Assembly: GCA_028288705.1 (NCBI GenBank)
Contig: JAQBNH010000007.1
Location: 124,001 to 188,000, forward strand
Direction of reading: 5' to 3'
DNA: 64,000 nucleotides
DNA from: Ferruginibacter sp.
GTDB lineage: Bacteria; Bacteroidota; Bacteroidia; Chitinophagales; Chitinophagaceae
The notes under the pieces were generated by a model. That model saw nothing but the letters and a program-made list of their open reading frames with translations. It did not search any database and was not told the origin of the DNA. The translations under genes and the position numbers were made by a program. Positions 54,893-59,136 of the stretch are shown here, piece after piece; positions within the stretch are counted from its first letter, which is position 1, and each line of letters begins with the position of its first letter.

Positions 54893-56200
54893 ATGGCAAA
54901 CGAAAATGAAAGCAGGCTGCCCTGCTGTCCTGAACTAATCAAAGATGATCACTGCGATGTAATCAATTTTAGCCGGGTGCTTAGTTATCCTACCAACAGC
55001 TTGGCCGGGAACAGGAGAAGGATTAACGTGGAAGTCATTCTTCATTTTAAATTTTCCCGTTGTACGCTTGGCCTTACTTTGGGCGACCCAGCTTACAGCA
55101 CCACCCTTCTGCCCGGCGAGCGCGTGCGGTTAGCTACAACAGACCGCCGGAGCCGCTTTACCTATGATAGTGAAACAAAACTGAGTTATCGCAGCGAACA
55201 GATTTCAGAAGAGCAATATTTCATGACGGCCACGCAAAAATATATGGCTGATGCATCTGCCGCGCAATCAGGCCATGCTGAAAGTTCTTCTGAAGGGCAA
55301 TGGGATTTTCACGGTGATGCTGAAGGGAGCATTGGCATCTTCAGCCTGAGCGCAAGTGCCAGTACCAGCGCGGGTGGCAGCCATAACAATCATTCCGTTG
55401 CAGACTATCTTAACCAGCAAAAAACACATGTGCAAAGTGCCGCGTCGCAGGCGGTGAGTTCCACACGAAAAGCCCATTCAGTCTCGGTTGGGGAAGTGAG
55501 CAATCGCGTTCATATCGAAGGTGAGTCAGAAGATCATTTTGAAGCCTCTTCCAGGGAATTCAGCAATTACAATAAATGCCACGCAGTCACATACATGTTT
55601 TACCGGCTGAATAAAAAACAGCGGATAAAATTTGAACTGTTGTCAATCGAGCGCCGGGTATTAGATGATAACGCTCCGGTTGGCGGCATCCTGCAACCCG
55701 GGAAAAAGAAAGTACCGATCGCCCTCGTACCACAGGATCTTCCGGCTACCGTAACGTTAAGAAAAAGCCCGGTGCTCGCAGGAGTGAACGCGGGCTCATT
55801 ATCTGTCGCAATGGACGCATCCGCTCTTACTTCTTTGGCGCAATCTCCATTAAGCAGGGTTGTTTTTAATTCCGAAAATTCAGGTGCCGCGATCGAAGGC
55901 GAAACACGCGTTCGTGCGTTGAAAGAAGTTGATGAACAATTAATCAGTAAAAACCTGATCGATAAAAACGGGCAGGTCAGCAAAGAAATCAAGCAACAAA
56001 TAGATTTCGAAATGGAATTTTCGCTGCCCACTCCCGGCATTATTGTAAAGGGTTGCCTGGATGACTGTGACGTTTGTGAACCATTATTAAAAGAACGGAT
56101 GCAACTGGAGAACGACCTGTTGCGCAAGCAAATTGAATTGCTGGATAAATCCCAGGAGTACCGATGCTGCCCGATTGCAGCAGAAAATGATAACGCTTAA
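54893..56200 (+). CDS. Unknown protein A of the accessory cassette (435 aa)
   Basis: I do not recognise a family. There is no signal peptide. Residues 45-110 form a beta-rich, conserved-looking block (LGDPAYSTTLLPGERVRLAT, TTDRRSRFTYDSETKLSYR). Residues 119-190 are low complexity, rich in Ala, Ser, His and Gly. A second block (residues 225-260, KCHAVTYMFYRLNKKQRIKFE) follows. The end has a C-x3-C-x2-C cluster at residues 388-395, a heptad-like helix (residues 396-425) and a CC pair. It is the first gene of a tightly packed set with B, DUF1360 and D, 51 bases before B. Confidence 0.8.
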   Translation: MANENESRLPCCPELIKDDHCDVINFSRVLSYPTNSLAGNRRRINVEVILHFKFSRCTLGLTLGDPAYSTTLLPGERVRLATTDRRSRFTYDSETKLSYRSEQISEEQYFMTATQKYMADASAAQSGHAESSSEGQWDFHGDAEGSIGIFSLSASASTSAGGSHNNHSVADYLNQQKTHVQSAASQAVSSTRKAHSVSVGEVSNRVHIEGESEDHFEASSREFSNYNKCHAVTYMFYRLNKKQRIKFELLSIERRVLDDNAPVGGILQPGKKKVPIALVPQDLPATVTLRKSPVLAGVNAGSLSVAMDASALTSLAQSPLSRVVFNSENSGAAIEGETRVRALKEVDEQLISKNLIDKNGQVSKEIKQQIDFEMEFSLPTPGIIVKGCLDDCDVCEPLLKERMQLENDLLRKQIELLDKSQEYRCCPIAAENDNA

Positions 56201-56251
56201 AACAACATCAGATCCTGGTAACATCAGGATGAACCAATCAAAAAATTATTT

Positions 56252-58528
56252 ATGGAACAGCTTAGAAAACTGGCGTTCGAAGTGAATTTTGAACAGCCCT
56301 TAAAAGAAGACCTGGTGCTGGCAGGCTTCCTTTTTCATTGCAATGGCTATTTATTGCAGCAGCAGTTGGTAAGGAAAAATGTGCTAGAATTTGATCTCAG
56401 CAATTTCACACACAAAGAAAAAGAAACAGAACAACGAAGTCTCGACAGTAAACAATTACGTGTACTGATCGCACCCGTTACGGAGAAAATTATGAAAGGC
56501 ATCCGCACGCTGGAAGATCTGGAAAAATTAAAGCCTTATGAGCCCGTACTCAGGAAAAATTCTGATGGCATGTTCTCCATTCTTCCGATTCCCATCCAGA
56601 TCTCCCAGCACTGGCCTCGTTGCCATTGCCGTGTAACGGGCAAAGTCTCGAAATGGTTTCTTACAGGCAGCACTTGGGAAAACAGGGCGATCTGCAGGGC
56701 GCGTGTGCATATCTGCGATGTAGATTCCATCCGCTACTGGATCTACAAAATTCCAGACCGTATTATTGCACGCATTCCGGATGCCATCCTTCATCCAAAA
56801 GAGATTGTTCGTTTTCCGATCCCGGTTCCGGACCCACCGCCGTTTCTGCGAAATGCCATATTACCCTCAGCACCCATCGCTGCAAATCTGTTTAAAAAAT
56901 CTTCACCAGATGAAAAATTAATGGGTCATGCTGCAACACTCCCGGAATTGCCACTGGAATTACGTCAGACGCTTGTGTCACGAAACCTCGACCATATCCG
57001 CGAAGCGATCATCAGTAATTACGCTGTGCTTCACCCCTGGTTTTGCCTTTGGCCGTGGTGGTGGCCTTACTTTTATCAATTGCAGGAATTAGCGGTTGAC
57101 TATACAGACGCAAACGGCCGCTTCGACGCAAACGTAAGCTACCAGTGCTTCCGCGACCGCCCGGACATTTATATCTGGATCGACTATATGATTAACGGGG
57201 CATGGCAGATTATTTATCAGCCACCTGTTCCCTGCAATGTTCGCTGGGATTATCAATGCGGCACGCCGATCAATATCCAGGTAACAGATCCACGTGTTCC
57301 GGGAAATTGCTGTTGTGATTGTCATATTCCGGGTGATGCAGTCTGGATCAGATCTGTTGGTGCTGTCAGCGTTTCTCATATTCTGCAAAACACGCTAATG
57401 GCAGCGCCTCCGGGACAATCCGTTCCTTACCAACGGCAGGGACTAACCGATGCTTCCGCAGCTTATGATCCTGGATTTTACACCGCCATTAATAATGATT
57501 ATCGCAGGCCTTTCGGTGGTAGTCCGTCTTTATATATGGGGTTCGGCAGCAGCCTTCCAAACAATAATATTTACTACTATCGCTGGAGTTATCGCCAGCT
57601 GCAAAATGCTGATCTCGATCCGGTGGCAGATTTTTTTAAACCCCTCGAACCTGCCGGAGTTATTATCAACAAAGGTTACCAGTATGAATACACTGACGTG
57701 AACGGAGACACGCAATTTGCCCCCGGCAGCGTAACATTAGGACCCGTTCCGGTTGGTGGAAACAACCTGTACATTATCCCTCCTGAACACCCGGATATGG
57801 CCCCATTCAATGTGCCGGAATTTAGTCCGGACTGGCATGAACCAACCGACATGATGCTAACGATGAGCTTTGACTCAACCAGTTTAAAAAGAGGAACCAT
57901 TCCTGGTGGGGATGGCATGTATGAATTCCGCCTCGAATTATTTGACCAGGCTGGAAATTTGTTGACCAACCTTCCGAGATCAGTTTACAAATCGCCGGAT
58001 CACAACAACAGCGGTTATAGTGTAAATGCGCCGGATGATTTGTTAGATCTCGGCCCGGGTGCTACTGCGCGTGCATTCTCTATGAAAATGAGAATTGATA
58101 ACGGGCAATGCCAGGGAGAAGTATTTACGGTGAATGTAAATGGCGCGCCGGCATCCCTGGATTGCTGCGGATTTGCCGCGTACAAACCTGGTGGCGTGGA
58201 AGCCGATTTGTCTTTGACCTTCCTGGCCACACACCCGCACAACTTTGCCGTATTCTCTTTCGGGGTAGAAAAGGGAACTTGCGGAGGTGTGCCAAACGCA
58301 GGAGCTTCCGGCCAGGTGATTGATGACGCCGGTGGTTACACATTAACGGCAGGTGTCTATGAAAAACATTTCACGCCCCAACAATTGCTGGATCAATGTT
58401 ATAATAATGGAACCGGAAAAGCGGCTTTCGCAGAGACACTGCACATTGCAGCAATTGCGACTGACGGCTATAACAGACTAACCGGTAAAGATGCAGGCGA
58501 CGTTGCTGCATTTGCACTGGAACCTTGA
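56252..58528 (+). CDS. Unknown Trp/Cys-rich multi-domain protein B (758 aa)
   Basis: No signal peptide. Residues 122-180 resemble a carboxypeptidase-regulatory or transthyretin-like beta-sandwich (CHCRVTGKV, ICRARVHICDVD), followed by a Pro-rich linker (residues 190-198). A Trp cluster lies at residues 263-272 (WFCLWPWWWP), then a second similar sandwich (DYTDANGRFDANVSYQC, residues 283-299), and a CCCDC cluster at residues 353-357. The C-terminal half (residues 400-758) is Gly/Asn/Pro-rich and looks all-beta. I cannot name a function. It ends in a one-base overlap with the DUF1360 gene. Confidence 0.8.
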   Translation: MEQLRKLAFEVNFEQPLKEDLVLAGFLFHCNGYLLQQQLVRKNVLEFDLSNFTHKEKETEQRSLDSKQLRVLIAPVTEKIMKGIRTLEDLEKLKPYEPVLRKNSDGMFSILPIPIQISQHWPRCHCRVTGKVSKWFLTGSTWENRAICRARVHICDVDSIRYWIYKIPDRIIARIPDAILHPKEIVRFPIPVPDPPPFLRNAILPSAPIAANLFKKSSPDEKLMGHAATLPELPLELRQTLVSRNLDHIREAIISNYAVLHPWFCLWPWWWPYFYQLQELAVDYTDANGRFDANVSYQCFRDRPDIYIWIDYMINGAWQIIYQPPVPCNVRWDYQCGTPINIQVTDPRVPGNCCCDCHIPGDAVWIRSVGAVSVSHILQNTLMAAPPGQSVPYQRQGLTDASAAYDPGFYTAINNDYRRPFGGSPSLYMGFGSSLPNNNIYYYRWSYRQLQNADLDPVADFFKPLEPAGVIINKGYQYEYTDVNGDTQFAPGSVTLGPVPVGGNNLYIIPPEHPDMAPFNVPEFSPDWHEPTDMMLTMSFDSTSLKRGTIPGGDGMYEFRLELFDQAGNLLTNLPRSVYKSPDHNNSGYSVNAPDDLLDLGPGATARAFSMKMRIDNGQCQGEVFTVNVNGAPASLDCCGFAAYKPGGVEADLSLTFLATHPHNFAVFSFGVEKGTCGGVPNAGASGQVIDDAGGYTLTAGVYEKHFTPQQLLDQCYNNGTGKAAFAETLHIAAIATDGYNRLTGKDAGDVAAFALEP

Positions 58529-58875
58529 TGATTGACGAACCAAAACAAGATCAGATGACCCCATTTCTTTTCCTGCTGATTTGCCTCGCATGCTGGCGGC
58601 TCACACATTTATTAAGTAAAGAAGACGGGCCTTTTGATCTTGTTTATCTCTTAAGAAAAAAAGCAGGAGCAGGTTTCTTCGGGAGCCTGCTCGACTGCTT
58701 TTATTGCGTCAGCATCTGGATCGCATTCCCGTTGGTTTTGGCGCTGGGATACTTTTGGTGGGAAAAACTGCTGTACTGGCTGTCCGTTTCAGGAGCGGCC
58801 TGCATCCTCGAACAGGCAACGACGACGAAACCGAAACTGCCACAGGATCAGTTGCCAGATTATAAAGAAGACTAA
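58528..58875 (+). CDS. DUF1360 family membrane protein
   Basis: 115 residues from ATG at 58528 (the stop TGA of B shares its A). Family signature: CWRLTHLLSKEDGPFDLVYLLRK in two parts (RLTHLL, EDGPFDLV), then LLDCFYCVSIWIAFP. Two or three hydrophobic segments place it in the membrane. DUF1360 proteins are found in many bacteria, but I know of no function. Its position suggests it anchors or moves the A/B products at the membrane. Confidence 0.82.
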   Translation: MIDEPKQDQMTPFLFLLICLACWRLTHLLSKEDGPFDLVYLLRKKAGAGFFGSLLDCFYCVSIWIAFPLVLALGYFWWEKLLYWLSVSGAACILEQATTTKPKLPQDQLPDYKED

Positions 58876-58884
58876 ATTATTTGT

Positions 58885-59136
58885 ATGTGTAATTGCGGTG
58901 ATAAAAGAGAAAGTTTTTCAGCGCAACCTTTCCGGTTGGCGAAAGAAAATATTTCAAAGCAGGAGTCGAAGATGTGGCCCGATGTGCATTTCACATACAC
59001 CGGGAAAACCGCATTAACCATCCGGGGAACCATCAGCGGCAAAAATTACCGGTTTGAAAAATCGGGGGAACGTTTGCTGGTCGATTACCGCGACGCTTCT
59101 GCTTTTATGCAGGTTCCGGTGCTCAAAAAAATATGA
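58885..59136 (+). CDS. Small protein D of the accessory cassette (83 aa)
   Basis: 83 residues. The N-terminus has a C-x-C pair (MCNCG). The C-terminal part (residues 32-83, including FTYTGKTALTIRGTISG and YRFEKSGERLLVDYRDA) is a compact beta domain resembling short phage or tail-associated proteins I have seen. This is an impression and not a verified match. It starts 9 bases after DUF1360, and its stop abuts that of ispG (TGATCA). Confidence 0.7.
   Translation: MCNCGDKRESFSAQPFRLAKENISKQESKMWPDVHFTYTGKTALTIRGTISGKNYRFEKSGERLLVDYRDASAFMQVPVLKKI

Follow-up and report, generated by a model that had tools for sequence, protein, structure and literature searches.

A conserved four-gene cassette with a DUF1360 membrane protein and an exchangeable slot for large immunoglobulin-like proteins

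Four closely packed genes, A to D, in a stretch of 64,000 nucleotides from Ferruginibacter sp. (contig JAQBNH010000007.1, positions 124,001 to 188,000; the whole stretch is called the window below) form a conserved, undescribed and patchily spread cassette, a conclusion which is well supported. The arrangement recurs far more often than chance would allow. In complete cassettes A, C and D are the constant members, and B was shown to be an exchangeable slot for large immunoglobulin (Ig)-like proteins. The cassette is called undescribed because literature searches and family scans were empty: searches combining the domain names of the cassette or of the giant relatives of A (see below) retrieved no paper, and neither Pfam (over cut-off) nor NCBIfam assigned a family to A, B or D. 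DUF1360 was named in a single paper within the literature searched, in a table of domains. The system occurs in several phyla and has no name, only its DUF1360 component is annotated, and our searches found no experimental literature on it. The genes, with their lengths in amino acids (aa), are the following:

54893..56200, plus strand: gene A, 435 aa (open reading frame call)
56252..58528, plus strand: gene B, type B1, 758 aa (open reading frame call)
58528..58875, plus strand: gene C, DUF1360 membrane protein, 115 aa (open reading frame, PF07098 match of 32.2 bits, hydrophobic segments)
58885..59136, plus strand: gene D, C-rich N-terminus and small conserved domain, 83 aa (open reading frame, family alignment, profile matches)

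All four genes are intact and are spaced by 51, −1 and 9 bases; the gene lengths and spacing given in an earlier note on this DNA agree with the open reading frame coordinates. The start of C was placed at the ATG at 58528, and the open reading frame listing uses a TTG one codon before (116 aa). The assignment of C to DUF1360 (PF07098), also claimed in the note, was confirmed by a score of 32.2 bits against a cut-off of 21; the family itself is of unknown function. Hydropathy indicated C as the sole clearly hydrophobic protein among the four. No membrane- or signal-peptide-like stretch was seen in the hydropathy profiles of A and B (maximum Kyte-Doolittle mean over 19 residues 1.3 and 0.95, respectively), as the note had stated for signal peptides. 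PHROG profiles gave chance-level rows only with A, B and D, and none of the PADLOC families matched any of the four proteins at E up to 0.1. In profile searches of the PDB, A, B and C had no match at E up to 1, and D gave chance-like rows only.

Recurrence and linkage of the genes

A scan with the A profile, with one genome per species, found 93 relatives, and 80 loci were kept. A B-type gene was present in 35 of these loci, C in 26, D in 26, C together with D in 25, and a B-type gene, C and D in 23. Nine loci in which gene picking overlooked the A frame are kept in the denominator, and five loci also fetched in another locus set (L071, L069, L099, L105 and L115) were counted once. The order A-B-C-D on one strand was found in 22 of the 23 complete loci, the Thermoflavifilum locus (L069) being arranged as B-C-D-A. 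Complete cassettes occur in Bacteroidota and in Rhodocyclaceae-type Betaproteobacteria. Partial arrangements exist as well: a Chlorobi bin (L099) has A-C-D but no B, a Burkholderiales bin (L091) has C-D-A, the Nitrospira locus L077 has A-B-C at the end of a contig, and a Rugosibacter bin (L085) has A-B-D, with no C found in its whole genome.

Strong matches to C were detected in 13, and to D likewise in 13, of 98 genomes from the window's family, and the two co-occur in 12 of 13 genomes each (Fisher 2e-13; this and the other association tests below are uncorrected for kinship). DUF1360 gains in D a stable partner and, with it, a genetic context. Full-length A is present in four of the 98 genomes, and each of these four also carries C and D (p 2e-4, uncorrected). 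Weaker matches were excluded from these counts: three of seven genomes matched by A (G082, G070 and G001, core-only), one of nine matched by B (G096, 60 residues, E 3e-4) and three of 16 matched by C (E 5.6e-4 to 8.5e-4). None of the four genes was matched in the second genome of the window's genus (G034). The gene upstream of C is of type B1 in G000, G045, G028, G030 and G058, of type B2 in G014, G063, G004 and G079, and encodes a CarboxypepD_reg-type protein (B4) in G070. C-D without a B-type gene was found in G009 and G007. A B5-type gene precedes D in G055, at a site other than that of C, and D adjoins a short B2-type gene in G026, which has no C.

Two findings weigh against the cassette being strictly one unit. 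Of the eight B1 genomes of the family, three (G060, G065 and G080) are without C or D, and among 395 genomes of the phylum A (12 genomes, several core-only) and B1 (15 genomes) coincide only in the window's genome. A is separable, since it occurs alone across many phyla. According to the record titles, its loci span Bacteroidota, Chlorobi, Chloroflexota, Nitrospira, Acidobacteria, Beta- and Gammaproteobacteria, and also, among others, KSB1, Calditrichota, Gemmatimonadota, Meiothermus and two Nitrososphaera bins. Stray contigs are possible in this distribution because many of the records are metagenome bins. The A homologues of the two archaeal Nitrososphaera bins (L109 and L130) are 39-40% identical to A, and transfer or misbinning is possible there. 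In one phylum genome (G195; L036:9089-10455), the A gene is broken into two frames by a stop.

A whole-genome search for C at 35 A loci without visible C found it in five of the 35. In those five genomes C always stands beside a B-type gene (before C in four, after it in one), and D was recognised among the picked open reading frames in two. Because C adjoins a B-type gene in all five genomes with a distant A, we conclude that C and a B-type gene, usually together with D, make up a module which A joins in some lineages. The proposal of a conserved neighbourhood put forward in the earlier note therefore stands in part. C-D and B-C-D are linked, and the unrelated distributions that would speak against the proposal were not found for them; A joins them in 23 of 80 loci, is partly independent in its distribution and meets B1 in just the one phylum genome.

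Nine Bacteroidota loci have the cassette flanked by the same nadB-type and ispG-type genes as the window, some of them with one extra gene (the names of the two gene types are our reading of the sequences). In view of this shared site, the group seems to have inherited the cassette in place. The cassettes of Pedobacter, Rhodocyclaceae and others are at other sites. An ispG-type gene within a few kb of A was noted in three unrelated groups (Nitrospira L076 and L077; Thiodiazotropha L118, L120, L122 and L123; and the nine Bacteroidota loci), a proximity which is possibly due to chance as the independent cases are few. The common flanks of the nine loci would be expected if the four genes were neighbours without a common function, kept by vertical inheritance at a fixed site; the ability of A to stand alone and the single coincidence of A with B1 are in line with this. 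However, the order recurs in Betaproteobacteria and in Pedobacter at other sites, a B-type gene still adjoins C in KSB1, Acidobacteria and a Rhizobacter bin, and the association of C with D is strong. The order seen across phyla makes mere neighbourhood unlikely, and we consider it the least probable of all the explanations weighed here.

Gene B and the exchangeable slot

The two motifs that the earlier note had pointed out in B were located in the sequence:

57050..57067, plus strand: WPWWWP patch of B, residues 267-272, just ahead of a predicted strand (sequence, alignment, model)
57308..57322, plus strand: CCCDC cluster of B, residues 353-357 (alignments)

Homologues at E up to 0.001 numbered 338 for B1 and 2283 for A, each search having scored the 8000 candidates with the most words in common with the query. 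Only the third Cys of the CCCDC cluster (C355) is kept in at least 90% of the aligned B1 homologues. The B1 model (predicted local distance difference test, pLDDT, 79.8; predicted template modelling score, pTM, 0.56) consists of beta sandwiches in a row, with helices in the middle, and according to this model B is a multi-domain Ig-like or transthyretin-like beta-sandwich protein. The two carboxypeptidase-regulatory-like sandwiches that the note had recognised in B are thus partly upheld. The predicted sandwich chain agrees with them, and a B-slot protein from another locus (L188) matches CarboxypepD_reg at 4.6e-6, below that family's cut-off, but B of the window itself has no Pfam support.

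The sequences of B1 and B2 have little in common, with an hhalign probability of 34.7% over a C-terminal stretch. In a comparison of 25 cassettes (24 loci and the window), the pairwise distances of A, C and D agreed with each other (Mantel 0.81, 0.89 and 0.81, reached in 0 of 2000 permutations each, uncorrected for kinship), and B1 and B2 cassettes were interleaved in the A tree, the support values of which were not examined. Judged from these sequences, the simplest reading is that B was replaced repeatedly while A, C and D remained stable. Further B types adjoin C or D elsewhere. Since A, C and D are constant while B is exchanged, it is suggested that B determines the specificity of the system.

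The best matches to the B1 model were mostly Ig-like chains, including those of pilins, adhesins, S-layer proteins, complement, arrestin and the Ig-like domains of transglutaminase. The B matches listed by Foldseek had template modelling (TM) scores of 0.15 or less on the query length, and because all the TM scores are low, no function can be read from them. Such matches, together with the diversification of the B slot, are what a passive surface or matrix structure would predict. In that case A and B would build a layer, sheath or adhesin coat, C and D would export or anchor it, B would diversify as a surface protein, and there would be no pore. The low TM scores detract from this explanation, no secretion signal was seen in A or B, and relatives of A have its core fused to protease and wall-hydrolase domains, which would be unusual for a coat protein. 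We regard a passive structure as rather unlikely, if still worth considering.

Gene A, its cysteines and its giant relatives

Three further features of A and C are needed here:

55250..55387, plus strand: Ser/Gly/Ala-rich low-confidence segment of A, residues 120-165 (composition, periodicity, pLDDT)
56054..56077, plus strand: C-x3-C-x2-C motif of A, C388, C392 and C395 (alignment of 57 members; partly common to the giants)
58696..58707, plus strand: C-x2-C motif of C, C57 and C60 (invariant in 19 aligned cassette homologues)

The conserved part of A comprises a core of approximately residues 45-256 and the C-terminal Cys motif. C392 and C395 are invariant and C388 is nearly invariant in the 57 members aligned. 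Altogether ten Cys of A are conserved, eight of them invariantly, and they are kept also where A occurs without the other three genes. The N-terminus of D has a C-x-C motif (residues 2 and 4) in the window, and its family alignment shows CxC in some lineages and CC in others. The Cys motifs named in the note are present in the sequence; the note had read them as a sign of shared metal binding or disulphide assembly, and this chemistry was not borne out. For the same reasons a cassette handling thiols or metal, with electrons carried or a metal bound by the Cys motifs of A, C (CxxC) and D (CxC or CC), appears very unlikely. The invariance of CxxC in C and the conserved Cys of A are in its favour, but D alternates between the two motifs, the B families differ in Cys, and the Cys of A persist in the absence of C and D.

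The relatives that tell most about A are giant proteins. When the A core was compared with six chosen proteins by hmmsearch, five of the six gave best domains of 1.4e-12 to 4.7e-6, four being giants. Residues 25-267 of A align to the core of the giants with an hhalign probability of 98.3%, and in three of the giants tested the motif around C392-C395 has a weak counterpart farther along, in the same order. A search with the core from locus L047 gave 1201 significant proteins among 7998 scored. The giants are annotated as 'papain-like cysteine protease family', and the 120 listed are 1,260-2,464 aa long. Peptidase_C70 (PF12385) was found in 90 of these 120, and an amidase or DUF2272 domain in 33 (PF10030, DUF2272, in 17 and the amidase PF01510 in 16). 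PF13354 occurred in four, PF00691, PF12671, PF13265, PF13529 and PF16754 in one each, and 27 were without a Pfam domain. The giant of L047 (L047:7860-14195) consists of the core, a C70 protease and then an amidase. A giant of L048 (L048:6719-11377, minus strand) combines an A-like core with an OmpA domain, and another in L049 (L049:6386-12421, minus strand) also has an A-like core.

A shares the core and part of the second Cys motif with this C70-protease family, in the same order. In contrast to the giants, it has no Peptidase_C70 or other enzyme domain according to Pfam and sits with B, C and D, and is thus a stand-alone member related to their core. PF12385 had no match in the window's genome, and the profiles of B1, B2 and B3 had none in the giants, so that a fusion of a B type with the A core there was rejected. 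In this way a widespread orphan family becomes linked to effector-like proteins. The giants look like effectors, by analogy, because the position of C70 before the amidase in L047 fits the layout of polymorphic toxins and because the DUF2272 family includes a secreted amidase. The source on polymorphic toxins describes inner papain-like or caspase-like peptidases which directly precede, and would release, the C-terminal toxin (PMC3482391), and that on DUF2272 describes a peptidoglycan amidase secreted into the competitor's periplasm (PMC10318531). The cassette differs from polymorphic toxin systems as that source presents them: A is without a toxin domain, and the cassette varies in B, not in a C-terminus. 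No enzymatic family indicating a variable C-terminal toxin domain exceeded the cut-off in A or B of the window or in the scanned B-type proteins. As the relatives fuse the core to a papain-like protease and some of them also to a peptidoglycan hydrolase, its ancestral job is suggested to have been the carrying or placing of cargo at the envelope.

The segment of A at residues 120-165 lies between two predicted helices, with pLDDT below 50 at residues 123-156. In the 57 members it is composed of 24% S, 15% G and 11.5% A. A periodicity scan of A in 48 overlapping windows gave beta-type periodicity at p<0.05 in ten windows, four of which are at residues 129-166, and helix-type periodicity in three. 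From its composition and periodicity, the segment is a candidate membrane-inserting hairpin. The structure model of A is weak (pLDDT 65). When it was compared with known structures, pore-forming proteins were the only class in the VIA list, none of them significantly. The long beta strands of the model and the Ser/Gly-rich insertion resemble aerolysin-type and other beta-pore-forming proteins, but no significant structural or sequence match was found for A. If A inserts into membranes, it would represent a new pore-forming or carrier family without a recognisable signal peptide.

Possible role and links to defence, phages and plasmids

The earlier note had suggested a membrane-linked assembly. 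The cassette most likely builds an envelope-associated multi-protein apparatus with a constant A, an exchangeable B, C as anchor and D as adaptor; we propose this tentatively, as the best of several explanations rather than as a probable one. Its insertion-like segment and its effector-like relatives make A the probable scaffold or membrane-inserting part, and the Ser/Gly-rich hairpin might enter a membrane or line it, as in beta-pore-formers. B would be a stalk or recognition subunit that sets the contacts of the apparatus. Because C alone is clearly hydrophobic, it is probably the part by which the complex reaches the inner membrane, and C may anchor or admit the complex there. D nearly always accompanies C and would be a small adaptor attached to it, probably as a soluble partner. 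The main gap is the export of A and B: with no signal-like stretch seen in either by hydropathy, an action outside the cytosol is hard to account for. A still bolder and doubtful extension is that A founds an undescribed family of membrane-inserting, beta-pore-like scaffolds with two uses, as the constant carrier part of the effector-like giants with their protease and wall-hydrolase domains and as one half of a split machine in the cassette, where the exchangeable Ig-like B would choose the target and DUF1360 and D would dock the machine at the inner membrane.

Proteases were observed beside A at some loci. A stand-alone C70-like protease, apparently a lipoprotein, lies next to A, or on the contig that carries B, in one subgroup (L070:9142-9714; L069:11220-11978; L038:3585-4160). 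Two Chloroflexota bins have a clostripain-family (C11) protease 0.2-0.3 kb upstream of A (L072:8089-9669; L074:891-2474). Moreover, an EAD7-TIR protein is encoded downstream of A in a Thermoflexales bin (L117:8137-8796). A genome-wide association of A with the C70 protease was considered and dropped. In the family set, the protease was present in three of four A genomes and in eight of 94 others (p 0.004, uncorrected). The second set did not bear this out, and we therefore do not rely on it: four of 23 A-positive Bacteroidota had the protease, or two of 21 after removal of L069 and L071, which were already in the first set; this is close to the background of 11/98.

Bacterial gasdermins follow the logic of a latent pore-former set free by a protease. 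An intracellular defence or cell-death module would work similarly: A would be a latent cytosolic pore-former released by a protease or a signal, B its sensor or inhibitor and C a membrane partner. Such a module would avoid the export gap, as A has no signal-like stretch, and the patchy spread, the weak resemblance of the A model to pore-formers and the neighbours of A described above (in L069, L070, L072, L074 and L117) fit it. However, the protease and TIR neighbours are few, the A-C70 link failed in the second set, PADLOC has no model for A-D, and in nine Bacteroidota loci the cassette stays at one site between the same two genes. We hold a defence module to be unlikely and retain the envelope apparatus as the preferred explanation.

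The phage-structural or contractile-injection link suggested by the note was not supported. A phage origin or structure was rejected, D having no match in 50,697 phage records and A not being found in a pattern-based scan of IMG/VR which did not include B. Contractile injection was likewise rejected: the tail-sheath family PF04984 had no match in the window's genome, with control matches in three of 14 genomes, and none of the 14 recurrent neighbour clusters read, of 40 listed, was tail-like. Plasmid mobility was rejected as well, because neither A nor B had a match in 72,556 plasmid records. A single viral D, used as a query, also had no match in the phage records and retrieved only its own contig from the viral set searched. 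On one viral contig of 102 kb, relatives of C and D lie approximately 0.4 kb apart (L151:7971-8912), and the same contig carries a gene of the phage adenylosuccinate-synthetase family phrog_1211. DUF1360 relatives were also found in two actinophage stretches (L149:4995-5303; L150:4977-5300), in neither of which D was found; in Gordonia phage Derg, the DUF1360 gene is located directly upstream of the portal gene.

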